The position numbers and the translations under genes were made by a program. This document shows, in pieces, positions 2,590 through 24,597 of a stretch of DNA of 41,083 bases; the stretch's first letter is position 1; every line of letters starts with the position of its first letter. The notes below the pieces were generated by a model. That model was given only the letters and a program-made list of their open reading frames with translations, searched no databases and was not told the DNA's origin. This DNA is from a virus, in the IMG/VR virus record IMGVR_UViG_3300013131_000005, positions 1-41,083 of that record, one strand, 5' to 3'.

Positions 2590-2612
2590 TCATTCATCAA
2601 TTTGGGGGTGAC

Positions 2613-3117: not shown

Positions 3118-3317
3118 GCGTGCTGATTGCAGCTAACCAGCGCATCCACGCCAACATTGACCGCATGGCCGAATTGGCACAGATAGAGATTTTGAAAGAC
3201 GGAATGCGAGCCCGATGTGCCATCGACGGGATAGTTGAGTGGCACAACCGCAGCGTGGCGCAGAAGCGCAGGTTCATGAACAAACAACGCATTGAAAAAC
3301 TAGGAGGTAGCAAATGA
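3114..3317 (+). CDS. Hypothetical early protein (67 aa)
   Basis: Starts at ATG 3114 in an ATGA overlap with the preceding gene and ends in an ATGA overlap with the RecT gene. It is basic and helical, with RIHANIDRMAELAQIEI near the start and a Lys/Arg-rich C-terminus. Tight coupling to the annealase gene suggests a role in the recombination operon. No family is recognised. Confidence 0.7.
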   Translation: MSVLIAANQRIHANIDRMAELAQIEILKDGMRARCAIDGIVEWHNRSVAQKRRFMNKQRIEKLGGSK

Positions 3318-4186
3318 ATGCACCAGCAAAAGGCACTGCGCTCGCAGCAAAAGTGCAGAACACGGCAGTCTCGGCCATGACGGAAGATCAGCTCGTCAAC
3401 ATCCTTCGCAACAGCCTGTACCCAGGGGCGCAAACGGACAGCATCAAGATGGTGCTTGGATACTGTCAAGCAGCCGGACTAGACCCGATGCAGAAGCCTG
3501 TACATATTGTGCCTATCTATGACGGAAAGCTGAAGTCAATGCGCGACGTAGTGATGCCTGGCATCGGACTGTACCGCACCCAAATGTCGCGCACAGGAGA
3601 ATGTGCTGGTGTAACCGAGCCGGAGTTCGGGACGGACACCACAGAGACGCTGGGCGGGGTCGAGATCACCTATCCGCAGTGGTGCAAAGTGATAGTTAAG
3701 AGACTCCTACCAAGCGGCCAGATCGCCGAGTATGCCGCGACTGAGCGCTGGAAAGAGAACTACGCCATGAAGGGAGGAGCTGAAAAGAGCGTAGCGCCGA
3801 ATGCCATGTGGACAAAACGACCCTATGCCCAGCTTGCCAAGTGCGCAGAGGCGCAGGCTCTTCGCAAGGCATTCCCAGAGCTAGGGGCAGCACCGACTGC
3901 GGATGAAATGGAAGGAAAGGAGTTTGACGGTCAAGTTATCGACGCCCATGTGCGCGAAGTCACGGAAGAGAAACCCGCCCTGCCGACCATGGACAAGGAA
4001 GAAGTCATTACCCGATACGGAACAGACGTGGTTGACGACAAATCTGGCGAAGTCACCAAGTTCAGCAAGAAATCTCTCATCCAGCAAGGCGATGCAAAGG
4101 CGCAAACACTGATCGACTTCCTTGCGCCTCGTTGTGCGCTGACCAATGAAGCAATCGCAGAAATTCAATCTTGGGAGAAGAAATAA
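3314..4186 (+). CDS. bet: RecT/Bet family single-strand annealing protein
   Basis: A 290-residue protein. The central region holds typical RecT/Bet features: the GLDPMQKPVHIVPI segment near residue 55, the GIGLYRTQMSRTGE segment, and ALRKAFPEL near residue 190, after which the C-terminus becomes charged and variable. Members of the family anneal complementary single strands produced by a partner 5'-3' exonuclease. That partner is encoded directly downstream with a TAATG overlap, and an SSB gene follows in the same operon. This makes a full phage recombination set (exonuclease, annealase, SSB). It might also help DGR cDNA enter its targets; that is speculation. Confidence 0.9.
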   Translation: MNAPAKGTALAAKVQNTAVSAMTEDQLVNILRNSLYPGAQTDSIKMVLGYCQAAGLDPMQKPVHIVPIYDGKLKSMRDVVMPGIGLYRTQMSRTGECAGVTEPEFGTDTTETLGGVEITYPQWCKVIVKRLLPSGQIAEYAATERWKENYAMKGGAEKSVAPNAMWTKRPYAQLAKCAEAQALRKAFPELGAAPTADEMEGKEFDGQVIDAHVREVTEEKPALPTMDKEEVITRYGTDVVDDKSGEVTKFSKKSLIQQGDAKAQTLIDFLAPRCALTNEAIAEIQSWEKK

Positions 4187-5814
4187 TGAAAATCCTGAAC
4201 CTCATCCAAGGAACGCCAGAATGGAAGGAGCATCGCGCTACCGCATTCAATGCCAGCGATGCTCCAGCCATGCTCGGGATAAGCAAGTATGAAACGCGCA
4301 CTCAACTCATTCACCGCATGGCGACAGGAATCGTGCCGGAAGTGGACGATGCGACACAGCGCCGCTTCAATGATGGTCACAGATTCGAGGTGCTTGCGCG
4401 TCCGCTGGCCGAGAAGATCATCGGCGACGAGCTTTCGCCAGTAACAGGAACGAACGGTCGCCTGTCGGCATCGTTTGACGGCCTGCCGTTCGATAACTCA
4501 ATCCCGTTCGAGCATAAATCGCTGAATCAAGAACTGCGCGAAGTGCTGTCGTGCGAAGATGCTACCGGAGCCGATTTGGAAATGCAGTATCAGGTTCAGA
4601 TGGAGCAGCAGTTAATGGTGTGCGGCGGCAAGAAGACGCTGTTCATGGCATCGACTTGGAATGAGGGCAGCGAGCTGGTTGAAGAACTGCATTGCTGGTA
4701 CTACCAGAATCCAGAGCTGGCAGAGCGCATCGATGCTGGTTGGGTGCAGCTTGAAAAGGACGTTGAAGAATACAAGCGCAAGCTTGCCGCTGGCGAGATC
4801 GAGCAGCCCAAGTCAGCGCCAAAGGCCGAGGCAATCCAAGCCCTGCCAGCCGTGTTCGTTCAAGCGACCGGCATGGTGACTGCATCCAACCTATCCGAAT
4901 TCAAGGAAGCGGCCACCACGTTCATCGCAGCGATCAAGACCGAGCTTGTCTGCGACCAAGACTTTGCCGATGCGGAAGCTACCGTGAAGTTCTGCAAAGA
5001 AGCCGAGGGAAATCTGGAATCAACCAAGGCCAGCGTACTCGCGCAGATGTCCACGGTTGACGAGGTGGTGCGCGCACTCGACCACATAGCCGCCCAGCTC
5101 CGCAACAAACGTCTGATGCTGGACAAGTTGGTGAAGAGTGAGAAGGAAGCGCGCAAGCTGGAAATCATCAGCAAGGCTGGAAATGACTTCACCGCCCACG
5201 TCCAAGCGCTCGAATCTGAGACACGCCCAATCAAGTTGAATGTTGCGCGGCCAGACTTTTCCGGCGCGATCAAGGGTCTGAAAAGCCTATCCTCGATGCA
5301 GGAGAAGGTTGACACCGCTCTGCGCGACGGCAAGTTTACAGCAGACCAGCTTGCCGCTGACGTGCGCAAAAAGCTGGCATGGTGCAAAGATAACGCAGCA
5401 GGTCACGGCTCACTCTTCCCTGATCTGCAATCGCTCATGGTCAAGCCTATGGAAGACTTCACACTGACCATCACCAGCAGGATTGATAAGTATAGGGCAG
5501 ATGAGGCCGAGAAGATGGAAGCGGTGCGAGTCCAGGCAGAAGCAGATGCGCGCGCAAAGATTGAGAAAGAACAGCGCGAAGCGAATGCTGACAAGCCGAT
5601 AGAGCCTAGCCCGCGCACAACATCAGATAAGCCGTCCGCGCCTGCTGTATGGCCGTTCCCAATGAAAGATTCCGCGAACGCCAATCCAATTAAGCCAGCA
5701 CGACCAAGCGACGAAGTACTCATCACAAGCATTGCGTCCAGCTTCGGTATCACCTACGGAGATGCCTGCGACTGGGTGATGGAGGCGGCTGAGCGGATGA
5801 TACAAGCGGCGTAA
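4186..5814 (+). CDS. YqaJ-type exonuclease with long C-terminal extension
   Basis: A 542-residue protein; ATG 4186 overlaps the annealase stop (TAATG). Residues 1 to about 210 form a YqaJ/lambda-exonuclease-like nuclease: GTPEWKEHRA, the SDAPAMLG helix, GHRFE, then Asp in SFDGL and the E-x-K of FEHKS, and the QVQMEQQLMV helix. These are the acidic and lysine residues expected for a PD-(D/E)XK metal site. About 330 further residues follow, helical and coiled-coil-like, resembling the phage DUF1351 family, and end in a small helical domain. YqaJ proteins are usually near 200-350 residues, so this looks like a natural fusion of exonuclease and accessory domain. Confidence 0.85.
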   Translation: MKILNLIQGTPEWKEHRATAFNASDAPAMLGISKYETRTQLIHRMATGIVPEVDDATQRRFNDGHRFEVLARPLAEKIIGDELSPVTGTNGRLSASFDGLPFDNSIPFEHKSLNQELREVLSCEDATGADLEMQYQVQMEQQLMVCGGKKTLFMASTWNEGSELVEELHCWYYQNPELAERIDAGWVQLEKDVEEYKRKLAAGEIEQPKSAPKAEAIQALPAVFVQATGMVTASNLSEFKEAATTFIAAIKTELVCDQDFADAEATVKFCKEAEGNLESTKASVLAQMSTVDEVVRALDHIAAQLRNKRLMLDKLVKSEKEARKLEIISKAGNDFTAHVQALESETRPIKLNVARPDFSGAIKGLKSLSSMQEKVDTALRDGKFTADQLAADVRKKLAWCKDNAAGHGSLFPDLQSLMVKPMEDFTLTITSRIDKYRADEAEKMEAVRVQAEADARAKIEKEQREANADKPIEPSPRTTSDKPSAPAVWPFPMKDSANANPIKPARPSDEVLITSIASSFGITYGDACDWVMEAAERMIQAA

Positions 5815-5842
5815 TTTTACCAACATCAAAAGGAGACATAAC

Positions 5843-6466
5843 ATGCAAGCAACAATCGTATCAGCAGCAGAAGTTCCAGCCATCGTAGGAACACCATTTT
5901 GCGGCGGTTTCTTGGCTGGATTTTTCCAATCGGAAGGAAAGAAGTTTGCCATTGTCACCGCGCCAAAAGATGAAGGTGAGAAGCAAAACGGTCAGTGGAA
6001 TGATTCATGCTCAATCGTTAATGGCGCGCTGTCGTTCTTTGACGGCATGGAGAATACACAGGCCATGTCTGAAGCTGGAAGCAATCTGGCTCAGTGGGCG
6101 CTCGGGCTGAACATCGGCGGATATAACGACTGGCACATCCCGGCACAGGACGTTCTGGAGATCATCTACCGCAATCTCAAGCCAACCACAGATGAAAACT
6201 GGTGCTATGCGCGCTCCGGCATCAACCTATCAGCGATTGAGCCAACCCGACCATACACTCAGACATTCCCATTGCAGACGGTTGTGGACGCATTCAAGCA
6301 AGGTGGTGCTGAGGCATTTGAGCAGACTATTTACTGGACATCGACGCAGCACGTCGCCGCTTCTGCCTCTGCCTGGACTCAGGGCTTTGACTACGGCGGC
6401 CAGGGCAGCTACAGCGAGTTCAGCAAGTTCTCGGCGCGTGCTGTCCGCATATTAGAAATTCAGTAA
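5843..6466 (+). CDS. DGR1 variable protein 2 (DUF1566-like)
   Basis: A 207-residue protein with a strong AAGGAG ribosome site before ATG 5843. The middle contains GGYNDWHIPAQDVLEIIYR, the N/D-W-h-h-P signature of the DUF1566/Lcl fold. The end contains YWTSTQHVAAS and SARAV, as in variable protein 1. Residues about 168-203 are VR2. The two DGR1 targets share the C-terminal lectin-like part but have different N-termini. This gene directly precedes avd, the template and the reverse transcriptase, so it is the cis target; variable protein 1 is a remote target 3.9 kb upstream. Confidence 0.92.
   Translation: MQATIVSAAEVPAIVGTPFCGGFLAGFFQSEGKKFAIVTAPKDEGEKQNGQWNDSCSIVNGALSFFDGMENTQAMSEAGSNLAQWALGLNIGGYNDWHIPAQDVLEIIYRNLKPTTDENWCYARSGINLSAIEPTRPYTQTFPLQTVVDAFKQGGAEAFEQTIYWTSTQHVAASASAWTQGFDYGGQGSYSEFSKFSARAVRILEIQ
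6343..6449 (+). repeat. DGR1 variable repeat VR2
   Basis: These 107 bases align without gaps to template 7013-7119. There are 20 mismatches and every one is at a template adenine, for example AAC to GGC, TAC, AGC or TTC, and AAG to GAG. Most codons differ from those of VR1, so the two repeats were mutated independently from the same template. Confidence 0.97.
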
Positions 6467-6490
6467 TTTAATAATTTGGTTTTCATCAGC

Positions 6491-6841
6491 ATGGCACTCC
6501 ACACCACATTGCCGATATATAAGGTTGCTTATAACCTGTTCGATGTCGTCACCGACCTAGTAAAAAACATGCCGAGAGATTTCAAGGCGAGCATAGGTGG
6601 CAAGATCAGCGGTGAATGCATTGAGATTCTGATGCTCATATTCCGCGCGAATTGTGCGCGGGATAAAGCGCCATACCTTGATGAGCTAATCGAGCGCCAA
6701 CAAGTGTGTGAACTGTTGCTTCGTCTCTCTCGGGACAAGCGGATTATTTCGACAGTTCAATACGCAAAGGCTATCGAGATCACCAATATGGTCGGCAAGC
6801 AGGCCGGTGGATGGCGCAAAGCATCATCGCCAGCTTCATAA
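6491..6841 (+). CDS. avd: Accessory variability protein of DGR1 (Avd)
   Basis: A 116-residue protein starting at ATG 6491; an in-frame TTG at 6476 is less likely. It has the typical Avd pattern: ALHTTLPIYKVAYNLFDVV, then NMPRDFKASIGGKI, the LIFRANCARDK helix, LLLRLSRDKR, and GKQAGGWRK near the end. Avd forms a basic pentameric four-helix-bundle barrel that binds the reverse transcriptase and template RNA and is needed for mutagenic retrohoming. It lies between the cis target and the template, the usual DGR order. Its TAA overlaps an in-frame ATG of the reverse transcriptase frame (TAATG). Confidence 0.93.
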   Translation: MALHTTLPIYKVAYNLFDVVTDLVKNMPRDFKASIGGKISGECIEILMLIFRANCARDKAPYLDELIERQQVCELLLRLSRDKRIISTVQYAKAIEITNMVGKQAGGWRKASSPAS

Positions 6842-8235
6842 TGGTTAAGGCCGCTATGACAGAGCGAATTTCTAATCTGGTCGTGCCGCTGGAGAAATCC
6901 ACCGCCATGCGCATAGCAGATACCGATGGGATAGATACCCATGACAGGTCTGGCGCAGTTTCCATGCTGATCGGCAACGGCCTTCGGTGTGGCGACATAG
7001 ATAGCACGATAGAAAGCAGCACGTCGCCGCTTCTGACTATGCCTGGAATCAGAACTTTGAAAACGGCAACCAGAACAACAACAACAAGAACAACAAGTTC
7101 TCGGCGCGTGCTGTCCGCAGATGGATTCGAGCGCCACCATGCTGATTTTTCTTTTGCAGAGCTGGTGCAGGCGTATCTTGATTGTCGCAAGACCAAGCGC
7201 AACAGCAGCAGCGCTCTGGCTTTTGAGCAGGACATGGAACGCAACCTGTGCATCCTACATGATGAGCTGAAAGATGGAAGCTATCGGCCTGGGCGGTCTA
7301 TCTGTTTTGTCATCACACGACCTAAGCCGCGCGAAGTTTGGGCGGCTGATTTTCGTGATAGAGTTGTGCACCACCTTCTCTACAACCGAATCTCTCCGCG
7401 CTTCTACGCAAGCTTTATTGCCGATAGCTGCGCATGTATTCCGAAACGCGGCACGCTCTATGCAGCACAACGCCTTGAGGCAAAGGTGCGCAGTGCGACA
7501 CAGAACTGGTCTAGGAATATCTGGTATCTAAAGCTCGACCTCGCCAACTTCTTCGTCAGCATCGACAAGAACATTCTGCATGATCTGATTGCTAAGCGAG
7601 TGACTGAACCGCACTGGATGTCTCTGGCTGACTTGATTCTGTTCCATGACCCGCGCCAAGATTTTGAGTTGCGTGGCGCGCCGCACATGCTCGACATGGT
7701 TCCTCCGCATAAGCGCCTTACGAACCATCCAGCGAGCCTCGGGCTGCCGATTGGGAATCTATCTTCTCAATTCTTCGCCAACATCTATCTTGATGTGCTT
7801 GACCAATTCTGCAAGCACAAGTTGCAGGCCAGGCATTACATCAGATATGTCGATGACTTCGTGTTGTTGCATGAATCGCCGCAATGGCTCAACGCAGCGA
7901 AGTATGAAATAGAAGAACTATTGAGCGATAAGCTGCGCGCCCGCATAAATCCATCGAAAACGATCTTGCAGCCAGTAGCTCGCGGAGTTGATTTTGTCGG
8001 TCAGGTAATCCTCCCATGGCACAGAGTCACCCGCAAGCGCACAGTCAATGTAGCCATGAGCAGAGTGCGTGAAGTAGATGATTGCGATTTGTACCAGACA
8101 GCCAACAGCTATTATGGTTTGCTCAGGCAGTCCACACACAGCCACCACCAGCGCGCAGAGCTATCGAACATCGTGCGATATCGCGGAAGCTGCATAGATA
8201 AACATTTCACAAAGACATATCGGAGGTCTGAATGA
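6841..8235 (+). CDS. DGR1 reverse transcriptase
   Basis: The conserved enzyme runs from about 7140 to 8235. It shows the DGR-type motifs LDLANFFVSID, GLPIGNLSSQ and YVDD (codons 7846-7857). The SSQ motif is characteristic of DGR enzymes, which copy template adenines unfaithfully. A long insertion precedes motif B (LFHDPRQDFELRG onwards). The start is uncertain. The frame is open without a stop through the template repeat, and the only later in-frame starts are ATG 7037 inside the template and GTG 7165. ATG 6841 overlaps the avd stop and would allow coupled translation, giving 464 aa. The next gene overlaps by ATGA. Confidence 0.9.
   Translation: MVKAAMTERISNLVVPLEKSTAMRIADTDGIDTHDRSGAVSMLIGNGLRCGDIDSTIESSTSPLLTMPGIRTLKTATRTTTTRTTSSRRVLSADGFERHHADFSFAELVQAYLDCRKTKRNSSSALAFEQDMERNLCILHDELKDGSYRPGRSICFVITRPKPREVWAADFRDRVVHHLLYNRISPRFYASFIADSCACIPKRGTLYAAQRLEAKVRSATQNWSRNIWYLKLDLANFFVSIDKNILHDLIAKRVTEPHWMSLADLILFHDPRQDFELRGAPHMLDMVPPHKRLTNHPASLGLPIGNLSSQFFANIYLDVLDQFCKHKLQARHYIRYVDDFVLLHESPQWLNAAKYEIEELLSDKLRARINPSKTILQPVARGVDFVGQVILPWHRVTRKRTVNVAMSRVREVDDCDLYQTANSYYGLLRQSTHSHHQRAELSNIVRYRGSCIDKHFTKTYRRSE
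7011..7122 (+). repeat. DGR1 template repeat TR1
   Basis: This is the donor for VR1 (2467-2578) and VR2 (6343-6449). It is rich in AAC codons (ten of them in the VR reading frame), which under adenine mutagenesis can reach many amino acids but never a stop codon. Conserved flanks are CAGCACGTCGCCGCTTCTG on the left and TTCTCGGCGCGTGCTGTCC on the right. It lies between avd and the reverse transcriptase core and is read in another frame by the open RT frame. Confidence 0.96.
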
Positions 8236-11897: not shown

Positions 11898-12397
11898 ACA
11901 ACCCCCTGTACGCCAGGCACTGTTGTCTCGGCCTGGACTTGTGCCGTTAATGCCTGCCGCTTTCCAACTGCCGCACCGGCTGTGGCGTTGTAGGCAGCCG
12001 CCTTGAGCAGCACGGATGCAGCAAGAGCGGAAACTGTCTGGCCTGACGCTGCCGCAATTGCCGACAGCATTGGTGTCGGCGCAGCGATGTTTGCAGTGAC
12101 TGCCTGCGCTTCCGCGTATTGGTTCGGCCATGTTAATGTCTCTTGAGGTGGATATGGCAGGACGATTGCGGCAAGTTCCTTCTGGCACTTGCTATTGATC
12201 TCGACAATCTTCTCTGCCCTTACCTCTTCCAGCGTCTTTCCTGACTGCACAACGACCCAAGCGCCGTTTTGAAAAAAGCAGCCTGCGGTAGCCGCGTCAA
12301 ATGCAGGCGGCGCAATGGCGGTCGTCTGCATCCAATCGGCGGGAGTGCCGGTTTGAATCAACTCGCCCGTGTCCGGGCTGTATGCGTATTGCATCAT
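11891..12397 (-). CDS. Tail-fibre-assembly-like protein (DUF4376-like)
   Basis: A 168-residue protein starting at ATG 12397 in an ATGA overlap with the reverse transcriptase stop. The N-terminus (YAYSPDTGELIQTGTPADW) and the middle (GKTLEEVRAEKIVEINSKCQ) match the layout of phage tail-fibre assembly or chaperone proteins with a DUF4376-like helical part. The rest is Ala-rich helix. In this phage the usual fibre-chaperone pair is interrupted by the DGR2 cassette (avd, template, RT), so the chaperone is translated after the RT. The function is inferred. Confidence 0.6.
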   Translation of the reverse strand: MMQYAYSPDTGELIQTGTPADWMQTTAIAPPAFDAATAGCFFQNGAWVVVQSGKTLEEVRAEKIVEINSKCQKELAAIVLPYPPQETLTWPNQYAEAQAVTANIAAPTPMLSAIAAASGQTVSALAASVLLKAAAYNATAGAAVGKRQALTAQVQAETTVPGVQGVVW

Positions 12398-13359
12398 GCG
12401 ACTCCTAGTTTGTTGAGAAGGTTGTATGAGTCAGCCCATTGCGCGTGACCTTTCCACGATGCAATGAATCGACCGAGAGAGAGTTCGTCTCCACGCGAGC
12501 GGAATTTGAATATCTTGCGTTTCGCCGCAGTCACGGATTGCTTGCGCAGCAGCTTGTGTGTCGGCCAGATGCGGTAGCCAAGCCAGTCCAGCCCTTGTGT
12601 GATCTTGCCGATGCTCCACTTTGAGAAGCGCAGGCCGAGCTGCGCATCAGAGAACCACTTCAATCCCTGCTGCAATAGTGCCAGCGCCTCGCGGCTGTGC
12701 GCAAAAACCACCGTGTCGTCCATGTAGCGCAGCCACGCCTTGATGCGTAGGGTGTGCGTCAGGTATCGGTCTAGCACATGGCCGTAGACATTGGCGAAGA
12801 GCTGGCTGGTGAGGTTTCCGATAGGTAGGCCGCGCCCCGTCTCGGGCAGGAAGGTGGCGATCAGTTCAAGCGTGGTCGCGCAGCTCACCTTGCGCTTGAT
12901 CTCTCCATGCAGCACCGCGCGGTCGATGCTGGCGAAATACTTGCTGAAATCCATCTTCAACCAGTGCGTGTAGCCGCGCCGCATGATGGCCTGCGCCTCG
13001 ATGGCGGCAGCGTGCGTGCCGCGCCCTTTGCGGCAGGCGTAGCTGTTGGGTAGGAAGGTGCGGTCAAAGATCGGCTCAATGACTGCGCAAAGCGCATGCT
13101 GCACGACTCGATCAGCGAACGGAAGTGCGGAAATCTCGCGCCGCTTTGGCTCGCTCACGAAGAACAGAGTCGGCTCAGATGGGCGATAGGTTCCATTCTT
13201 CAGCGCCTCAGAGAGTGCGCGCAGGTTGGCGGCCAAGTGCTGCTTAAATTGCAGATGGCCGCAGCTATACCGCTTGCCTTTGGCTGCCCGCTCGTAGGCT
13301 CGATACAGGTTCGGCATGCTGGCAATCTTGCCGATCAGGTTCTTGTGTTTCTTACCCAT
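12394..13359 (-). CDS. DGR2 reverse transcriptase
   Basis: A 321-residue enzyme of the BPP-1 Brt type starting at ATG 13359 (MGKKHKNLIGKIASMPNLYR). Motifs are KMDFSKYFASID (136-146), GLPIGNLTSQ (177-186) and YMDD (212-215). The N-terminal YSCGHLQFKQHLAANLRALSEAL segment and the C-terminal LDWLGYRIWPTHKLLR thumb region are also typical. It is clearly different from the DGR1 enzyme, lacking the long insertion before motif B, so the two did not arise by recent duplication. It works with the Avd at 13632-14012 on the template at 13526-13635. Confidence 0.95.
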   Translation of the reverse strand: MGKKHKNLIGKIASMPNLYRAYERAAKGKRYSCGHLQFKQHLAANLRALSEALKNGTYRPSEPTLFFVSEPKRREISALPFADRVVQHALCAVIEPIFDRTFLPNSYACRKGRGTHAAAIEAQAIMRRGYTHWLKMDFSKYFASIDRAVLHGEIKRKVSCATTLELIATFLPETGRGLPIGNLTSQLFANVYGHVLDRYLTHTLRIKAWLRYMDDTVVFAHSREALALLQQGLKWFSDAQLGLRFSKWSIGKITQGLDWLGYRIWPTHKLLRKQSVTAAKRKIFKFRSRGDELSLGRFIASWKGHAQWADSYNLLNKLGVA

Positions 13360-13525: not shown

Positions 13526-13635
13526 GTCACAGGCGGCACGCAACCCAATGTTCCAGTTCGAGTTCCACGGGTAGTTGTTCCAGTTGGAAGCCCGCGAACC
13601 GGAGTTCGCGCCGTTCGTGCGCGTGCCGCTTTTAT
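13526..13635 (-). repeat. DGR2 template repeat TR2
   Basis: These 110 bases align without gaps to 14047-14156 in the tail fibre gene. On the coding strand it is rich in AAC codons and begins at the last bases of avd (four-base overlap with its stop region). All 16 mismatches to the variable repeat are at adenines (T on the plus strand); none of the other 84 positions differ. The region lies in an open frame (13352-13645) that ends over the RT start codon. Confidence 0.96.
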
Positions 13636-14012
13636 CCATGTTCACCCCTTGCGGTCTTGGTTTTAATCCAAGCGCCCAGCATCTTGCCTGTCTCTGCCAG
13701 GTGGATACTTGCCACCTCGGCCTGATGTCGGCTTATCAGCTTGCGCTTGGCGTCCGCCAAGAACCGCACCATGTATCTCAGTTCGGATAATCCTGCGTCA
13801 GCCAGATACAGCTTGGAGACTTGTCCAGATTTACCCGCCTGAGAAAACATTCCTACTTGCTCAAACATCGCGCCGATGAGGCGATCTCGCGCCACGTAAT
13901 GCGTGCGGCGGATGTTGAGCGCAATCGGATACATATAGTTGATGAAGCCCTCGAAGCGCTCGATGATGGCGAGCTGCCTCTGGCTGGCGAATTCATCACT
14001 TAAAGTCTCCAC
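13632..14012 (-). CDS. avd: Accessory variability protein of DGR2 (Avd-type)
   Basis: A 126-residue protein if started at GTG 14012, preceded by AAGGGAG about 11 bases upstream. No ATG near the expected start is better: a frame from 14069 would cover the VR and the fibre stop. It is helical and shows Avd-like features of the second subtype: YMYPIALNIRRTHYVARDRLIGAMF, KLYLADAGLSELRYMVRFLAD and ETGKMLGAWIK. These should form a four-helix bundle that binds the reverse transcriptase and template RNA. Its end overlaps the template by four bases. It is not closely similar to the DGR1 Avd. Confidence 0.88.
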   Translation of the reverse strand: METLSDEFASQRQLAIIERFEGFINYMYPIALNIRRTHYVARDRLIGAMFEQVGMFSQAGKSGQVSKLYLADAGLSELRYMVRFLADAKRKLISRHQAEVASIHLAETGKMLGAWIKTKTARGEHG

Positions 14013-14028
14013 GGTCGCTTGCGCTCCC

Positions 14029-16164
14029 TTATACAGATTGCACGTGGTCACAGGCGGCACGCAACCCAATGTACCAGCCCGAGTTCCACGGGTAGCTGCT
14101 CCAGTAGGAAGCCCGCGAACCGGAGTACGCGCCGACCGCGCGCGCGCCGCCGAGAAGTACGCGCACTAGACCGTAGGTGCCGAAGGTGTATTCTTGTCCA
14201 CGCTCCGACCCGGCTGCGCCAGTATTGCCGTTTACCTGCTTCCATGAACCTGCGCCAGCTATGTCCTGATAGGCATTTGAATCAAGACCATACGTCCAGT
14301 GATGCCCGGATGCCTGCTCGATGCCGAACTTCGAGGTATATCCAGCATTGCGCTGGGTTGTTGGGTAGGTTGACGCTGTTGCATCAATTGACTGGTTCTC
14401 GGTTACGCCAAACGCGGCCTCATAGAACTCATGCCCGAACATCAGTCGCTTGGATTGAGAATGAGCAAGTTCGTTTGCAACCCACCAGTTCAGAGATGGA
14501 TATGTCGTCGTGCCGTTCCCGCCGAATGCAGATGGAATCTTTGGCAGCACCGTGCCAGATGCGATATTTGTTCCTGCCTTGCTGGTGCCATTGGCATCTG
14601 TTCCTGTGGAGCATAGGTAGATGTCAACCCAGAGTTTGCCGCCGACCAGCGCCATGCCTCTCGGGTCGCAAATTGGCCTCCACTTCAAATCCCACATCGA
14701 GTATTTATTGATTCCGGCGATGTCGTCCACATCACCCTGAGTCCATATCTTTCCGTTTCCGGTAGTGGCGAACGAGCCTCCAGCAACCGTTGTTCCAGCT
14801 GCGACAAGCCCGTAGTGGAAGCCGCCGATCTTGCGCCAGTTACCAGCTCCCGGAGCGCTTACGTGGTCTGTTGTCGCTTGGATAGTGGCGTCGTCCTTCA
14901 CCCAGATGGCGTAGTCGGTGCCGCCAGTGAGCGTTGGCATTGTGATTGCTGTTGCAGCAACAAAAGTAACAACCGTTCCCGCTACATCAACCTTTGTTCC
15001 TGCCTTGATGCTTGCAGTTCCAGCTCCTGTTTTGGTGAATGCCACTGATAGCTGGTCGTTTTTGTAGAACAATCCTGAGATGTAATTAGATGCTGCAATG
15101 AATGCATCCTGCCATCCAGTTGCCGTGTATGTGCGCATCTTCCCAGATGTTGAATTCCAGTAGAGAGCGCCAACAAGCAGCGCTACTCCATAGTTGTCCA
15201 GCGCCGGGTCTGATGTCTTTGTTCCCAGATAGCGATCATCGAAATTGACGAAAGAGCTGGCGGCTGCGGCGGCGCTAGCTGCGGCATTCGTTGCTGAACT
15301 TGCTGCTGCCGTTGCGGAACCAGCTGCTGCTGTAGCTGATGCTGAAGCATTTCCGGCCTGAGTAGAGGCGGTTGCTGCCGAGCTGGATGCAGATGTTGCG
15401 CTGTTGGCCGAGTTAGTCGCCGATGTTGCTGCGGCGGTTGCGGAGGCTGCGGCATTGGTTGCTGATGTCGATGCCTCGCCCGCCTTTGTGGCGGCAGTTG
15501 ATGCGCTTCCGCTGGCCGATGTTGCTGACGCCGCCGCTGCTGTTGCACTGTTAGCGGTAGCGGTCACATTAGAATCTGTTGCGGTCTTGTTCGTCGCGGC
15601 GGCTGATGCGCTGTTTGCGGCGCTTGTTGCCGAGCCTGACGCTGCCGTGGCGGACGTAGCCGCATTGGATGCCTGCGTTGTTGCTGTCGTTGCAGATGTT
15701 GCGGCGGACGTTGCCGAGGCCGCAGCGGCAGTTTGTGATACAGCGGCGGCGGCGGCGGATGCTGCCGCAGAACCGTCGCCTGAAATCCCTATCCATAACG
15801 TATTGTCGAATGCGCTCGCAGAGGTGTGGGCTGTGTGGCAGATGTAGGCAAAGCCGCTATGCTGAACCACGTCTTTTACAGCGTATGCGGTTGCAGCAAC
15901 CCAATCTCCGCGCGGAACACCGCCAGTAGAAACAAGCGCGCGAGCCTGCTCGGATAGCATGTACGGTTCGACGAGCATATCCTTAACTTTTCCGTCATCA
16001 CGCTGCAATAGCTTGATGTTGGTATTGAGCGCGTTGATTGATGCAGAGATATTCGCCAGCTCGGCATCGACCGATACCGTCTTGACAGTAGAGCGACCGG
16101 CAACCTGATTCGTCTCGTCTGTAGCGAAGCTGGCGGTCGGGGTGTAATTTGGCGCGTGCGACAT
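14029..16164 (-). CDS. Tail fibre with DGR-diversified C-terminus
   Basis: A 711-residue receptor-binding protein. The N-terminal 80 residues are probably the virion-attachment part. Residues about 84-125 resemble a small carbohydrate-binding module (GDWVAATAYAVKDVVQHSGF). Residues about 131-305 are an Ala/Ser/Thr shaft of short repeats. The rest forms the head domain and ends with the variable repeat (about 670-706), where GSRAS, YPWN and GLRAACD are constant and the residues between vary. This is the C-type-lectin-like display seen in DGR targets such as Mtd. The last four codons lie outside the repeat. Host range switching is the expected outcome of its variation. Confidence 0.93.
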   Translation of the reverse strand: MSHAPNYTPTASFATDETNQVAGRSTVKTVSVDAELANISASINALNTNIKLLQRDDGKVKDMLVEPYMLSEQARALVSTGGVPRGDWVAATAYAVKDVVQHSGFAYICHTAHTSASAFDNTLWIGISGDGSAAASAAAAAVSQTAAAASATSAATSATTATTQASNAATSATAASGSATSAANSASAAATNKTATDSNVTATANSATAAAASATSASGSASTAATKAGEASTSATNAAASATAAATSATNSANSATSASSSAATASTQAGNASASATAAAGSATAAASSATNAAASAAAAASSFVNFDDRYLGTKTSDPALDNYGVALLVGALYWNSTSGKMRTYTATGWQDAFIAASNYISGLFYKNDQLSVAFTKTGAGTASIKAGTKVDVAGTVVTFVAATAITMPTLTGGTDYAIWVKDDATIQATTDHVSAPGAGNWRKIGGFHYGLVAAGTTVAGGSFATTGNGKIWTQGDVDDIAGINKYSMWDLKWRPICDPRGMALVGGKLWVDIYLCSTGTDANGTSKAGTNIASGTVLPKIPSAFGGNGTTTYPSLNWWVANELAHSQSKRLMFGHEFYEAAFGVTENQSIDATASTYPTTQRNAGYTSKFGIEQASGHHWTYGLDSNAYQDIAGAGSWKQVNGNTGAAGSERGQEYTFGTYGLVRVLLGGARAVGAYSGSRASYWSSYPWNSGWYIGLRAACDHVQSV
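14047..14156 (-). repeat. DGR2 variable repeat in the tail fibre
   Basis: Gapless match to TR2 with 16 substitutions at the 26 template adenines and none elsewhere. On the coding strand the changes include AAC to GTC, TAC, AGC and GGC, ACG to GCG, and AAA to CTC. The 3' side ending ATTGGGTTGCGTGCCGCC is identical in template and target and should contain the initiation-of-mutagenic-homology site. Confidence 0.97.
15250..15774 (-). repeat. Ala/Ser/Thr-rich shaft repeats of the tail fibre
   Basis: About 175 codons encode near-continuous short repeats of the type SATSAANSAS and AATSATAAS. This is the low-complexity shaft seen in many phage side-fibre proteins, expected to trimerise as a coiled coil. 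Long open frames on the opposite strand here are by-products of the biased GCN codons. Confidence 0.85.
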
Positions 16165-16210: not shown

Positions 16211-16223
16211 GTTCCATGCGATT
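16178..16223 (-). repeat. Late-operon intergenic element, copy A
   Basis: Begins with AATCGCATGGAA on the minus strand (16223-16212), overlapping the stop codon of the giant gene, and continues into a CGGCAG/CTGCCG hairpin before the tail-fibre start. Copies B and C carry the same 12-mer at the same place relative to a stop codon. Confidence 0.6.
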
Positions 16224-19200
16224 ACTCTTCGGCAGCCTCCATGCCAAGATGGCGCATCTTGGCAATGCCTTTCTCCCTGATCGAATCGAACTCGCGCTGG
16301 CTGATTGCCCCCTTACTCAGCAACCTGCCTGCGCGGCTGATCTCCTGGTCAATTGAGCGGACTTTGGCGTTGTCGCCGATCATGTTCATGCTGCCAGACT
16401 GCTCAAGATCAACAGGCCGCGCCTTGATTCCAATCGTCTGCATCGCGGCATACTTCGGCTGGACTGGAAGCCCATCCTTCCCTGTTCCGGTGTAGTCTTT
16501 GAGTGGATGAGCGGCCTCAATAGTCGTATCTGAGAAGTTAGCTGCCGCATTCATGATGCGGTCGTAGTGCGTCCCACCTAGAGCGATTGTTGGGAAACAA
16601 AGCTTGTACAGATAGTCGGCGGTCTTGACGGCCTTCTCGCTGCCAGTGTCGTTCGCGTCGAACATTTCCTTTCCGTCCCAGTTCTTGTTGTCTACCAGCG
16701 CCGAGAAGGCATTCAGCACTGGATTGCTGGGCATGAATGGGGCTGGGATGCCGATGCCGCCCTTCTCGTTCTGCACGTCCTGAATATCGCCGCCAGGGAT
16801 GAATCGGTACACATTGATGAATACAGGCAAACCTGTTTTTTCGTCAATGCCAAGGCGTATCGTCTTCTGCGTGCCCATGGCGGATGCGCCCTTATCCCAC
16901 TCTGCGAGGTTCTTGCGCTCTTCTTGCTCCAGCTCCTGCCCTGCCGTCTTCGGCTCATCGTCACCGTAGAACCCCATGGAATAAGCATTCAGTAGTGGCG
17001 TCATGGTGTTGCTCATGATCGCGCGCAGCCACCAGTCGTCGTCTCCGCTGTCCCCGGCCAGCGCGGCGTAGGATATGGCATTGATCGAAGAAATGATTAC
17101 CGCAGGCGCAGCAAAGCGCCAAGGGTATTCGATGGCGGTACTCGCCAACGCTGGGATGACCTTGTAGGTGTAAGCGAAGAAAGGCAGGCCGTAGTCTCGA
17201 ATCCCTCTGGCCGTCTTGGGCAGGTCGTCGTAGTTGAAGATATACTTCGAGGCATGCTGCACCGAATCCTCTGGCGACATCCCTTTGCTACGAGCATCTC
17301 GGTAAATGGCATATTTGAATATCACGTCGCCCCAGTGATAGGCATTTGCCATCTTATTGTTCAGAAATAGTGAGCCTAACCTCCATACCCAACGCACAGC
17401 CCACTCAGCGCCGCTCTCAGTCTTTCGGTCAATCAGTGCCCGTACTTCTGGAGGCATCGCCTTCATGATCTCCGCATGGCTGAAGTCGCCAGTGAACAGC
17501 CCGGCATCTTCTGCTTCTTGCATCATCGGCGCTTTTTGCACCAAGTCTTTCAGTGCGAAGAAATACTTCTCTCCGTCCCAGTAGCTCACTCCGGCAAAGT
17601 GCGCCATAGTCACGTTAGACACGAAGTTGTTCATGTGCGTGACCGGATTCAGCACCGTTTTGCCTTCCTTCCATTTCGACAGCGCAGCCTTGTAGTAGCG
17701 CTGGAACTCATTGTCGCTACTCTCATGCTGGCTGATGTGGCTCAGAATCTCGTCTTTCACATACAGACCGGCCAGCATGCCGTATCGGTTCAATCCGCCC
17801 GTGTCTGGTATCTCGGTGATGGGGATATAGGAATAGCCATCAGATGGTGTGCGGCGTGTCCACTCTGGATTCGATGCGATCTGACGGTACAACCTGCCGA
17901 TAGCGATGTCTCGTTGCATGGACAGATAGCCCATCACGAAGCGCAACCTGAAGTCCTGCACCTCGCCCATATCGCGGCGCTCATCTGGTGTGTAGTCCTT
18001 CCAGATGGCGACGGTATCCGTGTTCGGCATAGCATTGCCTTCGACAGTCAGCTCCAGTTGACCCTGTGCGTTTTTCTTCCATGCCTTGTCTGCAACTTCC
18101 CAGCCAAGCGCTTCCCATTCTGGCAGTTCCTGCACGGTGACTACTTGGCGCTTGCCGCGCCCCTTGAGTGAGCCGCTTCGGAATCCAGATATAGGGCTTG
18201 CCTTGAAAGTGCGCTGCCAGATTCCCTTAATTTCAGGGTCAAGGTGGCGCATGTAGAAGCGCGGCAGGTATTTTCCCTTCCACTTCTCGTAGGCATCTTT
18301 GGAAAGCATCTGAAGCTCGACTGCTTCCTGCCCCTGCTCGGTCATGGCGCGCTCGACAATGGCCGCGATCTTCATCGCATGCGCTGGCGGAACGTCGCCG
18401 GGCTGCATTTCCTCGGTCACGATGCGCGAGATCAGCGCCGACTCTTCCTCAGTCATGCCTTTGGTTGAATCGATGACTTCGCTGGCTACGCGCATCGCCT
18501 TATCAACGGCTGCCTTCTGGCTGCGCATCAGCTTCGCCAGCTCCTTGTTCGCCTGCGCCATGCCTGTTCTGACGGCCATCGGTCGCAGGAAAGAAGCGTG
18601 CAGTAAGTCTTTCAGGCGGCGTGAGCCAAGAAAGTCAGAGCGGATATTGCCCAGCTCGTCGCGGTCATATACAAGCGGAATGTGTTTTGGCAGGACTTTC
18701 GACAGGATGTCGAAGTCACGCGGCAGCTTGCTCACTGCCTTGTAGGCTTCTGGTGAGTTTGAGTAGTACAGCCACTCTAATGCGGAGACTGGCGTTTCTC
18801 GCTGTTGTATCCTGGAATAAGCTTCAGCCAGAAGTTGTCGTCCTTGTCCGCTAGATGCTTGGCGTAAAACGGAACGTGCGAACACTGCTCTTTGCAGCGT
18901 TGTATTTCCGATGCCCTCCACGCCAACTCCTCCGGCGTCTCGTCTAGCGAATGATCGTTCCGCAGCTCGTTTAAAATCTCTTGCGGTGAATTCGACTTTA
19001 TTAGAATTTGAGTGGGTTTCATTTTCATCACCTATCAGGATGAACTTGTCTGTGTGAAAATCGTACTCCACCTGATCGAGCAAAGCAACATTATCAGACG
19101 TATGGCGAATGGTCGCATCAAGCATCTGTTCGATGTTGTGCAGATCGTCACCCTCTATCCAGTCCAAGCCGGACATATTGCTCGGCAGCAGGTGCTTGGT

Positions 19201-22200
19201 CGTGCCGTAGCGCAGCGCAGAAGACAGCAGGTTCTCGATGCGTCTGGAAACGGCAATTGTCGAAATTCCGTTTGGGTCTGGTACAAACACGCGGCCAGTG
19301 TTGTGCGCGTAAGCCGCTGCGATCTGGTAAATCTCGCTGCCACGCTGATCTTGCCTTAGACTGGATACGTCGATGAATATCTGCTTGTCGTGGTCTTCGG
19401 TGATGTAGGCTGTTTTCTCGATACCATCCACAGTGAATTTTATCTGCCACTTGCGCGCCGCATCCTCCGGCACAGTGTCGGTAGGTAGTTCGCGCACGGT
19501 GAACTTCCCAGCTCTCATCTCGTTGGCAATTCCCGCCATATCCTTCTTGAAGGACGTGGGCATACGGAACATCCAGTCGTTCGCGGTCAGCTTCCACAGG
19601 AATTCCAGCGCCTTGCCTTTTGCGGTATCTGGGAAATCTGGCGTCTGGCTGTGATTGCCTCGGGTGCCCTGCGACATGCTAGCCATGACGGCTCTACCGG
19701 AACCAATGGAATCGCTTTGCTCAACCCCGTCTGCTGCATCCTTCATCTGAACAATCAGGCTGCGCACCTCGCCGTCGCTCACCTCAGATACCGGCTTGCT
19801 CAACACCTTCGCCATGAAGTTGCGCACAGCCTCGACGATGCGGGCGATCACGCCAAGGATTCCATCCCGCATCGCGTCAGGAACATTCACGCCGTAGCGG
19901 TCAAAGATCGCCTCTGCGTTGCCTGTCACATGCGCAGCTGCCAGCTCTGCAATCGCCTCTTGCACATGGATGCTCTTGTCGAATGTATCTCCACGATCTT
20001 TTGCGATGGCCTGCGCCAACTTCTCGATAGTGCCGTTCTTTGACAAGCTATCAACGTGCACGGCAACGCTCTTGTTCAGCATGCGGATACCGCCGTGCCC
20101 GACAACCTCATGCGCGGCCACCCAGGCGGCGCGTTCTGGCGATGCAATATTGTCCGCGATCAGGTATATGGTGTTCGTGTTCGGGTCGTAGATGCCCTCT
20201 GTCGCTTGGTTGATTGGCTGCAATGCCCGCAGCGCGCGCAGGTACACATCGTTCGGTATGCCTTTCACGGATTGGACGATGCTGACTTTCCTGAATCCTG
20301 ACCAGCCATTGCGTAAACGGGCGGTGGACTTAGTGATTTCATCGACGGTTTGCCCGCCGCCATCCCCGCCTTTGCTGAACAGCACTACGCCTTTTTCTGT
20401 TTCCTTCGATTCGATAGCTTGGAAGAAGTTGTCAAACCCACCGCGAATTGCTGGCAACTCGGATTCTGTTGGGTATGGATAACTACCTCCCTCTCCAACC
20501 CCGAGCGCATCTGCGGCGTTCCAGTATTCCTCAGACACCACGTTTGCCAAATAGTCATTGGCGAACCCGCTGTCGTGCAGCTTTGCGATCACATAGCGCT
20601 CGAATGAGCGGGCAGACATCTCTATGCCGGTTCCCCAATACGCTTTCGTTCTGCGCGCATCCAGTGAGCCAGAGCGCTGTTTGATGGCCGTGCTATTTAT
20701 TGCCTTCACTACCGCACCGAAGGCATCGATCATTTCCTTGCGGATGCCATCGTTCTTATATTGGTAGGCAGCATCGCGCGATGCCAGTGAAACGTCCAGC
20801 CTATCAGTGGCGAAGTCTTCCTTCTTGCCAGCAATGCGCGAGAAGTAGTTGTCCAGGCTGTGCCACCATTCATGCGCCAGACTTCCCGCGCCGTTGCCTT
20901 TGGTCAGGTTGATGACAATCTGGCCTGGCTCGTAATGCGCCGATGCTGGATTCTTTCCGCCTGTTCCGCGCGCACCAAAAGCAAGGCCAAGCTCCCCATT
21001 CAGCGAGATCGACTTCGGCGGGATGTCCAGGACAGCAGCCAAGTCCATCAGCGCATCATAGGCGTCGTTAAGGTCTTTCTGGCGGCGCGCACCCTCTACA
21101 TAATTTCCGAACTGGACGCCTCTGAATCCAAACGCATCGGAGAACATCTGCGGCGTAACGTCCTGTCCGTTGCGCATATCCTGCCCGACGCGCGGCTTAT
21201 TGGTGTCGTAGCGCTCGTTTGGAACAGCCTTTTTCTTCTCAAGGATTTCAGTCAACTCTTCGTTGTTGTTGGCGATGTATTCTCGCGCCTCTTTGATGGT
21301 GTCGAACCCGTCTTTGATGTGCAGGACATTGCGACCAACCTTCTTGCCAATGAAGTATTGCCCTTTGCTGCCAGCCTTGGCGTACCTATCCGCATACAGC
21401 TCGAACTTTGTCTTGGCTTCCTTCTCCTTGCTGGTATTAAGCGTTGAATATGCCTTCGAGAATGCATCGATGGCAGCCTGTCGCGTGTCGCCACTTCCAA
21501 GCGTTCGAGGCATGTTGCTGAATGCCGTTGACTTTGCGTCTCGCGTTACCTCCCAGATGATCTTCGGTGGGCTGTATGGTACGCCGTTGTATACGCCATA
21601 CTGGCTGCGGGATATGCGAACACCCTTCAGCGATTTCTCGTGACCGAACAGCGCATATAGTTCCGCGCGGCCATTGATCGCATCTTCTAGCTTCAGGTGT
21701 TCAATCTTCTTCATTTCAGAAACAAACTTGTCGGCGAACTCGATGTCATTCAGCAGCTTGTCTGCGGTCTCGCGCAGTAGCTCTACCTGCTTTGCCCAAG
21801 TCTTTTGCTTCCAGTCCTTTCCTGGCTTGTTCGGAACCTCGTCGCGCATCGAGCGTACAAGGCCGACGATATTCTTGTCATAACCTGAATCGACCAGCTT
21901 CTGATAATCCGGCTCCGGCCATGACTTCGACAGCGGCTGCGCCATCACGTCCGCCTTCATCGCTTCGGCCATGCGGTCTTTGTATGCGGCGGCATATTCT
22001 TTGCGAGCGCCAAGAATCTTCTCGCCGAAGTCTTCAATTGCCGATGGCTTCTGGTCAAGTATGTCTGCCTGTCCGTGAGCTGCGCCAATGTCAGATTGGC
22101 GATCTGAGCCGGTGAGGGTAAATTCTTCAGGTGATGGTGCGGAATCACGGCGCGCAGTGGCCTCTTCCTCCTTTTTGCGCGCCGCTTCTTTCTTATTTAG

Positions 22201-24597
22201 CTCTGCTTCGGTGTAGCTTTCAAGGAATCCAGCTTCGCTCTCGCCTGTTTGCGGCTCACCGACAGCTCTTTGGCTGCGGCCAGTATCTTCTTGCGCCGCT
22301 CCGTAGGATGCTTGAGCAATATCTCCGCCACGCGCTTGTTTTTCTCCACCAGAATCTTGCGTTGCTCCGGCGTTGCTTTCGCCAGACTTGCCTTGTCCAG
22401 TAGCTTCAATTCCGTCATATCCACCATCATGTTCTCCAAAGAATGCGGCCAGCGACTCCGCGTCTCCCGCGACTTCATCACCGAAGGGTATGTCTAATTC
22501 ATCGTCGATGACGTAATCAATGTCTGCCGCGTCAGACATTTCCGCATCGCTCATCGCCTCGCGCTCGGCAATTGCCTCCATGCGCAGATCATCTTCCGCC
22601 CGATAAACTGCCTCGTCAAGCTGCGCCTCGTTCAGATTCTTCCAGTTGATGCCGAGTTCTTCTGCGCGTTGAGCCATCGCATCGTATGCGGCACTGCGCA
22701 CAAGCTTCTCTGCTTGCGCCTCGATGTCTGCATGCTTGAAGCTGCGCTCGCCGTTGATGTGCGCGCGAATCATGTCGCGCAACTGCTGCACGCCGCCATC
22801 CACATCATTTGTGTCGATTGAGAATCCTTCAGCAGCAAGCTGGGTGGCGAGGTCATCCAGGCCGGTGCCGCCATTCTTAAATGCGAACCGCCATCCGCCA
22901 GGGGCGCGATTCTCGCCAGTAATATCCAGCGCCTGCGCACCGTCGATACCGCCGAGTTGCTTGATTCGTTGCAGCAGATCTCCCGATGCGCGTGCTGGCT
23001 TCTTTGCCGCAACTGCCGCTTCAGGCTTTGGCGCATTGGCTTGGGCGATTCCCTGCAACGCGCCGTAGATTCTCGCATCCTTGTCCTTGAACAGCTTCGC
23101 CGCTTTGGCGAATGTTGCGCTGTCGATCTTGCCAGTCTTGATGCCGTCTTTTGCCTTATTGATTAGGCTATCCATCTGGCGCGGCATGCCAAGCTCTCCG
23201 GCCACTCTGCGCAGTTTGATAAGCTGCTCAAGATGCGGCCTGACCGCATCCGCGCTGTTCGCTGCTGGCTCTGCTGTTTGCTCCGTCTCCTGCTTTACGT
23301 TTCCGTCCTGCGCGCTTGACGTTTCGGGTTTAGCTATCAAGGATTCCTTGACAGCTGGCGCTGCTTTGTCTTGCTGAATGGGTGGCGCAACTTGTCCAGG
23401 GGGAGGTGTGGTAGCAGCTTCTTGGGGCTGCGCCATGGGTGTTACTTCTTTCGGGTTACTCGCCTCAGCCGGACTTTCCCCTTGCAGCGGCTGAAATCCA
23501 TGCTCCCTGCTGGCTGTTGCGACCTGCTCAGCGCGTTGCAGGGACTCGATCACCTTGTCGTAGTTGACGCTTTGCTCAGGCGCTGCATCAGCCTGCTGCT
23601 CTGCCGGTCGCTGCCCAGACATCTTGGACAATACATGGCCGCCAGCACCCATACCGGCACTTTGCAGCAGGGTAGTGAGCGCCGTGTCCTTCATCTGCTT
23701 GGCGTATTCATCCAGCCCCGCATCTTGATTGGTGCCAACGCCAGGAAGCTTGTCCGTCAGGAACTGACCAGAGGTGGTGAATAGTTCGCCTGGTAGCTCC
23801 TTGGCGCTCGATGCGATCATGGCGCTACCGAGTTCCGCCGCACCATGACCGCGCGTAGCCTTAGCAAGTCCTGATGCCAGCCTGTCCATGCCGCCAAGCT
23901 TTTCGCCTACCGCCTCGAACGCACCCATAATCGGCGCACGAATTGCCGCTCCAGCGCCGGTCAATCCATCCCTGCGCCCCTCCCCATACTCTTGCGAAGT
24001 GCTAGTGGCGAGAATGGACGGCAGCACCAGTTCGGGCGCAACAGCCGCCAGTGCGAGATTTGGTGCGGTCTGGATGGTGGAGCCTATGGCGCTTGCAGCA
24101 GCCTTTGGCAAATCTTGTGCGATTGAATCTGGCGAGAACCCTTCTACCTTGCTGTCGCGCAGTTGTGCGCCACGCTCGATCTTGTCCGCATAGATCATCT
24201 GATCGTCTGCGATACTGTTCAGCGTATCCGAGCCGAGAGCATCCCCAAGCGCCTTGATTAAACCAGCCTCGGTTCTTCCGATGCCCGCATAACCTTGGCG
24301 CGCCCCCATTTCCAGCACGCCGGACAGCCCATCGACAATGCGCACATCACTATTGCTGACACCGCCTTGCCGTTTGGCTTTTGCGCTCAGCTCGGCATCG
24401 CGCAGAATGGACAGCGCCGCCGCTAGATCAGATTCGTTTGCTGAAGGCTGGACGCCAGCGAAATCATCCATAACGCCTCCTTCTCGGAAGAGCGCATTCG
24501 CCTTCTTGTAAACGCGATCTTTCAGGGATGGATTCTGCTCAACAGAATCAAGTGGCACGAAGCCGGTCTGCTCTTGCTCAAGTGGTACGAAAGCCAT
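16222..24597 (-). CDS. Giant polyvalent internal virion protein
   Basis: A 2,791-residue protein occupying one fifth of the genome. It belongs with the large polyvalent proteins that are packaged and ejected with phage DNA. An LPD1-like domain contains RGVQFGNYVEG, GLAFGARGTGGKN and the zinc-protease-like motif H1242-E-W-W-H1246. A second HEVVGH motif occurs near residue 1496. A region near residue 2460-2520 (YGLPFFAYTYKVIPALAS and a hydrophobic stretch) resembles LPD38. Low-complexity linkers rich in Pro, Gln and Ala separate parts of the N-terminal third. It probably enters the host during infection, where it could form a conduit and act on host targets. Exact domain limits need profile searches. 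Confidence 0.8.
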   Translation of the reverse strand: MAFVPLEQEQTGFVPLDSVEQNPSLKDRVYKKANALFREGGVMDDFAGVQPSANESDLAAALSILRDAELSAKAKRQGGVSNSDVRIVDGLSGVLEMGARQGYAGIGRTEAGLIKALGDALGSDTLNSIADDQMIYADKIERGAQLRDSKVEGFSPDSIAQDLPKAAASAIGSTIQTAPNLALAAVAPELVLPSILATSTSQEYGEGRRDGLTGAGAAIRAPIMGAFEAVGEKLGGMDRLASGLAKATRGHGAAELGSAMIASSAKELPGELFTTSGQFLTDKLPGVGTNQDAGLDEYAKQMKDTALTTLLQSAGMGAGGHVLSKMSGQRPAEQQADAAPEQSVNYDKVIESLQRAEQVATASREHGFQPLQGESPAEASNPKEVTPMAQPQEAATTPPPGQVAPPIQQDKAAPAVKESLIAKPETSSAQDGNVKQETEQTAEPAANSADAVRPHLEQLIKLRRVAGELGMPRQMDSLINKAKDGIKTGKIDSATFAKAAKLFKDKDARIYGALQGIAQANAPKPEAAVAAKKPARASGDLLQRIKQLGGIDGAQALDITGENRAPGGWRFAFKNGGTGLDDLATQLAAEGFSIDTNDVDGGVQQLRDMIRAHINGERSFKHADIEAQAEKLVRSAAYDAMAQRAEELGINWKNLNEAQLDEAVYRAEDDLRMEAIAEREAMSDAEMSDAADIDYVIDDELDIPFGDEVAGDAESLAAFFGEHDGGYDGIEATGQGKSGESNAGATQDSGGEKQARGGDIAQASYGAAQEDTGRSQRAVGEPQTGESEAGFLESYTEAELNKKEAARKKEEEATARRDSAPSPEEFTLTGSDRQSDIGAAHGQADILDQKPSAIEDFGEKILGARKEYAAAYKDRMAEAMKADVMAQPLSKSWPEPDYQKLVDSGYDKNIVGLVRSMRDEVPNKPGKDWKQKTWAKQVELLRETADKLLNDIEFADKFVSEMKKIEHLKLEDAINGRAELYALFGHEKSLKGVRISRSQYGVYNGVPYSPPKIIWEVTRDAKSTAFSNMPRTLGSGDTRQAAIDAFSKAYSTLNTSKEKEAKTKFELYADRYAKAGSKGQYFIGKKVGRNVLHIKDGFDTIKEAREYIANNNEELTEILEKKKAVPNERYDTNKPRVGQDMRNGQDVTPQMFSDAFGFRGVQFGNYVEGARRQKDLNDAYDALMDLAAVLDIPPKSISLNGELGLAFGARGTGGKNPASAHYEPGQIVINLTKGNGAGSLAHEWWHSLDNYFSRIAGKKEDFATDRLDVSLASRDAAYQYKNDGIRKEMIDAFGAVVKAINSTAIKQRSGSLDARRTKAYWGTGIEMSARSFERYVIAKLHDSGFANDYLANVVSEEYWNAADALGVGEGGSYPYPTESELPAIRGGFDNFFQAIESKETEKGVVLFSKGGDGGGQTVDEITKSTARLRNGWSGFRKVSIVQSVKGIPNDVYLRALRALQPINQATEGIYDPNTNTIYLIADNIASPERAAWVAAHEVVGHGGIRMLNKSVAVHVDSLSKNGTIEKLAQAIAKDRGDTFDKSIHVQEAIAELAAAHVTGNAEAIFDRYGVNVPDAMRDGILGVIARIVEAVRNFMAKVLSKPVSEVSDGEVRSLIVQMKDAADGVEQSDSIGSGRAVMASMSQGTRGNHSQTPDFPDTAKGKALEFLWKLTANDWMFRMPTSFKKDMAGIANEMRAGKFTVRELPTDTVPEDAARKWQIKFTVDGIEKTAYITEDHDKQIFIDVSSLRQDQRGSEIYQIAAAYAHNTGRVFVPDPNGISTIAVSRRIENLLSSALRYGTTKHLLPSNMSGLDWIEGDDLHNIEQMLDATIRHTSDNVALLDQVEYDFHTDKFILIGDENETHSNSNKVEFTARDFKRAAERSFARRDAGGVGVEGIGNTTLQRAVFARSVLRQASSGQGRQLLAEAYSRIQQRETPVSALEWLYYSNSPEAYKAVSKLPRDFDILSKVLPKHIPLVYDRDELGNIRSDFLGSRRLKDLLHASFLRPMAVRTGMAQANKELAKLMRSQKAAVDKAMRVASEVIDSTKGMTEEESALISRIVTEEMQPGDVPPAHAMKIAAIVERAMTEQGQEAVELQMLSKDAYEKWKGKYLPRFYMRHLDPEIKGIWQRTFKASPISGFRSGSLKGRGKRQVVTVQELPEWEALGWEVADKAWKKNAQGQLELTVEGNAMPNTDTVAIWKDYTPDERRDMGEVQDFRLRFVMGYLSMQRDIAIGRLYRQIASNPEWTRRTPSDGYSYIPITEIPDTGGLNRYGMLAGLYVKDEILSHISQHESSDNEFQRYYKAALSKWKEGKTVLNPVTHMNNFVSNVTMAHFAGVSYWDGEKYFFALKDLVQKAPMMQEAEDAGLFTGDFSHAEIMKAMPPEVRALIDRKTESGAEWAVRWVWRLGSLFLNNKMANAYHWGDVIFKYAIYRDARSKGMSPEDSVQHASKYIFNYDDLPKTARGIRDYGLPFFAYTYKVIPALASTAIEYPWRFAAPAVIISSINAISYAALAGDSGDDDWWLRAIMSNTMTPLLNAYSMGFYGDDEPKTAGQELEQEERKNLAEWDKGASAMGTQKTIRLGIDEKTGLPVFINVYRFIPGGDIQDVQNEKGGIGIPAPFMPSNPVLNAFSALVDNKNWDGKEMFDANDTGSEKAVKTADYLYKLCFPTIALGGTHYDRIMNAAANFSDTTIEAAHPLKDYTGTGKDGLPVQPKYAAMQTIGIKARPVDLEQSGSMNMIGDNAKVRSIDQEISRAGRLLSKGAISQREFDSIREKGIAKMRHLGMEAAEE

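Follow-up and report, generated by a model that had tools for sequence, protein, structure and literature searches.

A BPP-1-type diversity-generating retroelement at the tail fiber tip of a phage that carries a second, distantly related element

A phage tail fiber gene whose 3' end differs from a nearby repeat only at adenines raises the questions of whether the locus is a diversity-generating retroelement (DGR), how far its diversified tract extends, and whether the system is still at work. We addressed them in a 41,083-nucleotide stretch of viral DNA (IMG/VR record IMGVR_UViG_3300013131_000005; the whole stretch is called the window below). We put the probability that the cassette is a complete BPP-1-type DGR at about 0.96, based on the following features, which are arranged in the order mtd-like fiber, avd, TR, and RT with the TR directly after avd:

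14029..16164, minus strand: target fiber gene, 711 aa, with a CBM_5_12 module (88-118), an Ala-rich shaft, and a C-terminal Mtd-like part (~356-708)
14047..14150, minus strand: VR, a homologous tract of 98-104 bp with its variable positions between 14070 and 14139
14041..14066, minus strand: IMH-like VR end, CGTGCCGCCTGTGAC then CACGTG, with a putative role drawn from BPP-1
14013..14028, minus strand: candidate target hairpin GGGAGC(GCAA)GCGACC with tandem G.A mismatches, fiber stop upstream and avd start downstream
13632..14012, minus strand: avd accessory gene, 126 aa, with a GTG start at 14012
13526..13629, minus strand: TR2, 98-104 bp with 20-21 adenines, beginning right after the avd stop codon
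13384..13511, minus strand: Phage_DGR structured RNA (RF03022, Rfam) between TR2 and RT2
12394..13359, minus strand: DGR reverse transcriptase RT2, 321 aa, with IGNLTSQ and YMDD motifs

The fiber gene matches the Pfam families mtd_2nd (2.5e-13) and CBM_5_12 as well as a PHROG tail protein family (2.3e-82), and among solved structures it matches PDB 1yu3 (E=6.2e-56). VR covers codons 671-706 of 711 and thereby the 3' end of an open target gene that encodes, by homology to solved Mtd structures, a C-type-lectin-like tip; an AlphaFold model of the Mtd-like part (13 sequences) had a mean pLDDT of 48.5 and was too poor for use. The first-pass annotation had the coordinates, strand, and 711-aa reading frame right, and its view of the target as the receptor tip of a tail fiber is supported by the Mtd homology (40% identity over 364 aligned aa) and the PHROG match, so that this tip would be the part that binds the receptor as in Mtd. 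The avd gene matches Pfam bAvd (5e-26) and the PHROG family of DGR Avd proteins (1.4e-23), and the Phage_DGR RNA scores 77.6 bits against a gathering threshold of 50 (E=1e-11). RT2 matches Pfam RVT_1 (1e-17) and a PHROG family (6.5e-115), with PDB 8ub7 as its best solved match among nine entries (E=4.9e-103). DGR reverse transcriptases are marked by an (I/V/L)GxxxSQ signature in motif 4 (PMC3521204), which RT2, adjoining TR2, carries as IGNLTSQ.

Realignment of TR2 (13526-13635) with VR (14047-14156), both on the minus strand, reproduced to the base what the first-pass annotation had counted over 110 bp: all 16 mismatches lie at TR adenines (8 A>G, 6 A>T, and 2 A>C), and the other 84 positions are identical. 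Given 26 adenines in this length of TR2, the chance of all 16 mismatches falling on A is 7.6e-13 (hypergeometric, 110 bp). The changes had also been described as hitting mostly AAC codons to give Tyr, Ser, Gly, and Val, which fits the finding that 7 of 8 AAC codons in the segment have become V, Y, Y, S, S, G, and Y codons. Together with the adjacent RT, Avd, and Phage_DGR RNA, these adenine-only mismatches support the earlier proposal of a DGR acting by mutagenic retrohoming.

The cassette belongs to an already well-known kind of DGR. Its gene order and spacing are those of the BPP-1 element (mtd-avd-TR-brt; AY029185), whose RT (Brt), Avd, and Mtd are 51%, 43%, and 40% identical to the window proteins and which likewise has GACCACNTG at its VR end and a Phage_DGR-type RNA after the TR. 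TR-adenine codons of BPP-1 Mtd match window codons 674, 676, 677, 680, 687, 689, 690, 694, 696, 698, and 699, whereas codon 691 has a TR adenine in the window only. The window fiber is longer than BPP-1 Mtd (711 versus 381 aa) through an extra N-terminal shaft and CBM module, its TR lacks the Leu-Phe-Gly framework codons that the BPP-1 TR has in common with its VR, and its hairpin is short with G.A mismatches, unlike that of BPP-1. Among the ORFs tested by tblastn against BPP-1, only the DGR and fiber proteins gave matches, and this suggests that cassette and fiber tip moved as a module into a phage that otherwise seems to be no close BPP-1 relative. The same Mtd-type cassette occurs in environmental viral contigs (L004-L024, uncharacterized; RT 66-95% identical to RT2), most of which have fiber bodies upstream of the Mtd-like part that differ from that of the window.

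Relatives of RT2 are encoded at 35 viral loci, and the readable TR/VR pairs among them again show mismatches almost only at adenines. When the 98-bp cores of 11 lineages are taken together, 110 of 223 TR adenines (49%) are changed compared to 7 of 855 other bases. At sites where the TRs of two lineages differ and neither base is A, 1061 of 1092 comparisons (which share lineages and are not independent) show VR with the base of its own TR and 7 with that of the other TR. Near-identical contigs were used in place of read mapping. Between L006 and L037, the TRs are identical and the VRs differ at 13 sites, each a TR adenine; the flanks show no difference over 837 bp downstream and 3 differences over 1402 bp upstream. 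The pairs L004/L037, L012/L016, L012/L014, and L004/L006 have 9, 8, 7, and 6 VR differences, respectively, every one at a TR adenine between almost identical flanks. Contigs from a natural population thus show change at template-adenine sites only, which is consistent, at the level of sequence, with RT-dependent transfer of a mutated TR into VR. These pairs show diversification in relatives with RTs 78-95% identical to RT2. A separate pattern was seen between L004 and L005, which, VR itself left aside, have a single difference in 2500 bp from VR downstream and a divergent fiber upstream of VR, as if the fiber body had been exchanged next to VR.

The first-pass annotation had read the TR2/VR pattern as a sign of recent activity. 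This stands for the near-identical relatives with their 6-13 VR differences, all at TR adenines, but a single TR/VR pair says little on recency, and no near-identical sibling of the window phage was seen, whose own activity is probable by extension from its relatives. The DGR might thus be intact in sequence but now silent, with VR as an old product held by selection, and it is in keeping with this that the evidence for activity comes from relatives and not from the window phage's own population. We nevertheless regard such silence as improbable: TR2 and VR still agree at all 84 non-adenine positions, so that the last homing was not long ago when measured against ordinary mutation, the RT and Avd reading frames are open, and relatives with a 95% identical RT have adenine-only VR differences between near-identical contigs.

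The repeat had further been described as reaching 5' into a Lys codon (AAA to CTC; the next codon changes from AGC to GGC). In the window alone, all differences up to 13635/14156 indeed fall on TR adenines, yet comparison with the relatives makes it very unlikely that diversification truly extends this far. Numbered from the 3' end of the repeat, the TR has adenines at 110, 108, 107, 106, and 105 (AAAAGC, reading Lys-Ser). In the VRs of the relatives, positions 110 and 107 are always T (15/15 each), 108 is C or T in 13/14, 105 is G in 14/15, and 106 can be any base, with the effect that VR codons 671-672 encode Leu/Met-Gly and position 106, the wobble position of the Leu/Met codon, varies silently. 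The 110-bp run looks continuous in the window because position 109 is a T=T match, but in 13 of 15 TR/VR pairs, the same position has a mismatch at a base other than A. Codons 671-672 moreover align with BPP-1 Mtd residues 341-342, whose codons have no TR adenine, and position 99 is nearly fixed as well (G in 12/13 relatives). Of the 16 mismatches, the six at positions 99, 105-108, and 110 are thus fixed or nearly fixed across relatives, and together with the mismatch at 109 this means that the count was right but the 5' end over-extended, the extra 14151-14156 being fixed framework. Judged from these alignments, the diversified tract spans 98-104 bp (14047-14144/14150), of whose 20 or 21 adenines 10 or 11, respectively, are changed. 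Even over this shorter stretch, the specificity for adenine is overwhelming, with 10/10 mismatches at A in the strict homologous 98-bp core (p = 1.3e-8) and 11/11 in the 104-bp version (p = 1.6e-9).

Duplication of lectin segments followed by positive selection without reverse transcription, which would agree with the finding that every core change from TR2 to VR alters an amino acid, has a negligible probability and was rejected, since selection would neither restrict changes to positions with an A in the other copy nor hold VR silent sites equal to the own TR in every lineage, and RT, Avd, and the DGR RNA adjoin.

For the BPP-1-type DGR, two elements at the VR end are candidate homing signals. 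VR terminates in GAC followed by CACGTG where the BPP-1 VR has GACCACCTG, while TR2 continues with GACGATAAG instead, and GACCACNTG is common to the VRs of BPP-1 and most relatives but missing from their TRs; by analogy to BPP-1, this VR end would function as IMH. Published DGR hairpins have a GC-rich stem of 7-10 bp and a GRNA loop 4-34 bp after VR (PMC3240598). A search for a hairpin with perfect stem after VR found none in the window, and a conserved element emerged once G.A pairs were allowed: GGGAGC(GCAA)GCGACC, 18 bp after VR, with four Watson-Crick pairs around a tandem G.A and a GCAA loop, weaker than the published form. It lies at the same place as the BPP-1 hairpin GCGGGGCC(GAAA)GGCCCCGC (PMC3240598), and its shape is kept in most close relatives with the loops GAAA, GCAA, or GGAA (GACA in L033); for L009, L012, L013, L016, and L024, automatic selection of the best hairpin gave a shifted or misplaced element, and its shape was judged by eye. 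A role as target signal seems plausible by this likeness, and part of the hairpin may be the avd ribosome-binding site. The relatives thus both fix the true boundary of the diversified tract and expose a shorter candidate target hairpin.

Following the model of BPP-1, an RNA spanning the avd end, TR2, and the structured spacer would be copied into cDNA by RT2 with Avd, with errors only at template adenines. This cDNA would replace VR at the 3' end of the fiber gene, guided by the IMH and probably also by the hairpin after it, while TR2 would stay unchanged. The predicted outcome is a pool of fiber tips with differences at roughly a dozen positions of the C-type-lectin fold and through which the phage lineage could change its receptor. 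The window cassette is a well-supported natural case of BPP-1-type fiber diversification.

The genome also contains another DGR (2466-8235, plus strand), which is distantly related to the first and has two targets of lectin fold in the early region:

2466-2578, plus strand: VR1a, end of an Lcl_C-type protein
6344-6449, plus strand: VR1b, end of another Lcl_C-type protein
6476-6841, plus strand: avd1
6825-7016, plus strand: RT-15 RNA (RF03018, Rfam)
7010-7122, plus strand: TR1
7189-8235, plus strand: RT1

Mismatches to TR1 again fall exclusively on adenines (15/15 for VR1a and 19/19 for VR1b, together 34/34), and a search of both strands revealed no cross-targeting from TR1 to VR2 or from TR2 to VR1. 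RT1 and RT2 are only distant relatives (33% identical). The nearest relative of RT1 (68%) is encoded by Burkholderia phage Magia (MT701587), whose DGR resembles this second element and is of a different RT lineage with different targets from the RT2 cassette. The layouts are similar, too: The Lcl_C-type targets sit around RecT and an exonuclease-like gene, and in Magia, two lectin-fold proteins, which its annotation marks as possible targets of a DGR, lie around RecT and nuclease genes. We lean toward the reading that the phage runs two independent DGRs of different RT lineages and RNA families (RF03022 and RF03018), one for the virion's receptor tip and one for two Lcl_C proteins flanking early recombination genes.

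A comparable pair is found in a related record (G003), which carries an Mtd-type DGR with an RT 88% identical to RT2 plus, close to homologues of SSB and exonuclease, a second DGR (L088/L089; 8000-42000) that has a TR of its own and two FGE-like targets. Mismatches of this second DGR lie at adenines in 20/21 and 26/27 cases, and its RT is only ~31-33% identical to RT1. The SSB gene is common to G003 and the window (80%), which speaks against the window being a chimera. Of the named phage records, 110 match RT1 and 153 match RT2; two matching places occur in one of the former (crAss-like uncultured phage cr6_1, NC_055894, which may thus be a further two-RT phage) and in none of the latter, and by these sequence matches two DGRs in one phage look uncommon. 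In the main texts of open-licence papers, we found no phage with two separate DGRs described. The Quimbyvirus phage diversifies a structural and a nonstructural protein using one DGR for both (PMC8008677), in contrast to the two separate RT-Avd-TR sets of the window. Should the second set act on the host cell and not in the virion, one small genome would explore receptors and a second interaction simultaneously through separate, non-crossing mutators. The pairing of DGRs in one phage is the part worth following, as a natural system for studying how two mutators keep to their own templates and what role the early-region targets play.

Beyond the DGRs, identical ends of 123 bp (1-123 and 40961-41083) indicate that the contig is probably a complete genome, circular or circularly permuted. 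The gene adjoining the fiber gene (16222-24597, minus strand) encodes a 2791-aa protein with the large polyvalent protein domains LPD5, LPD1, and LPD37. A phosphoadenosine phosphosulfate reductase-like gene at 38488-39429 (minus strand; PHROG 424, E=1.2e-67) is a possible auxiliary metabolic gene.
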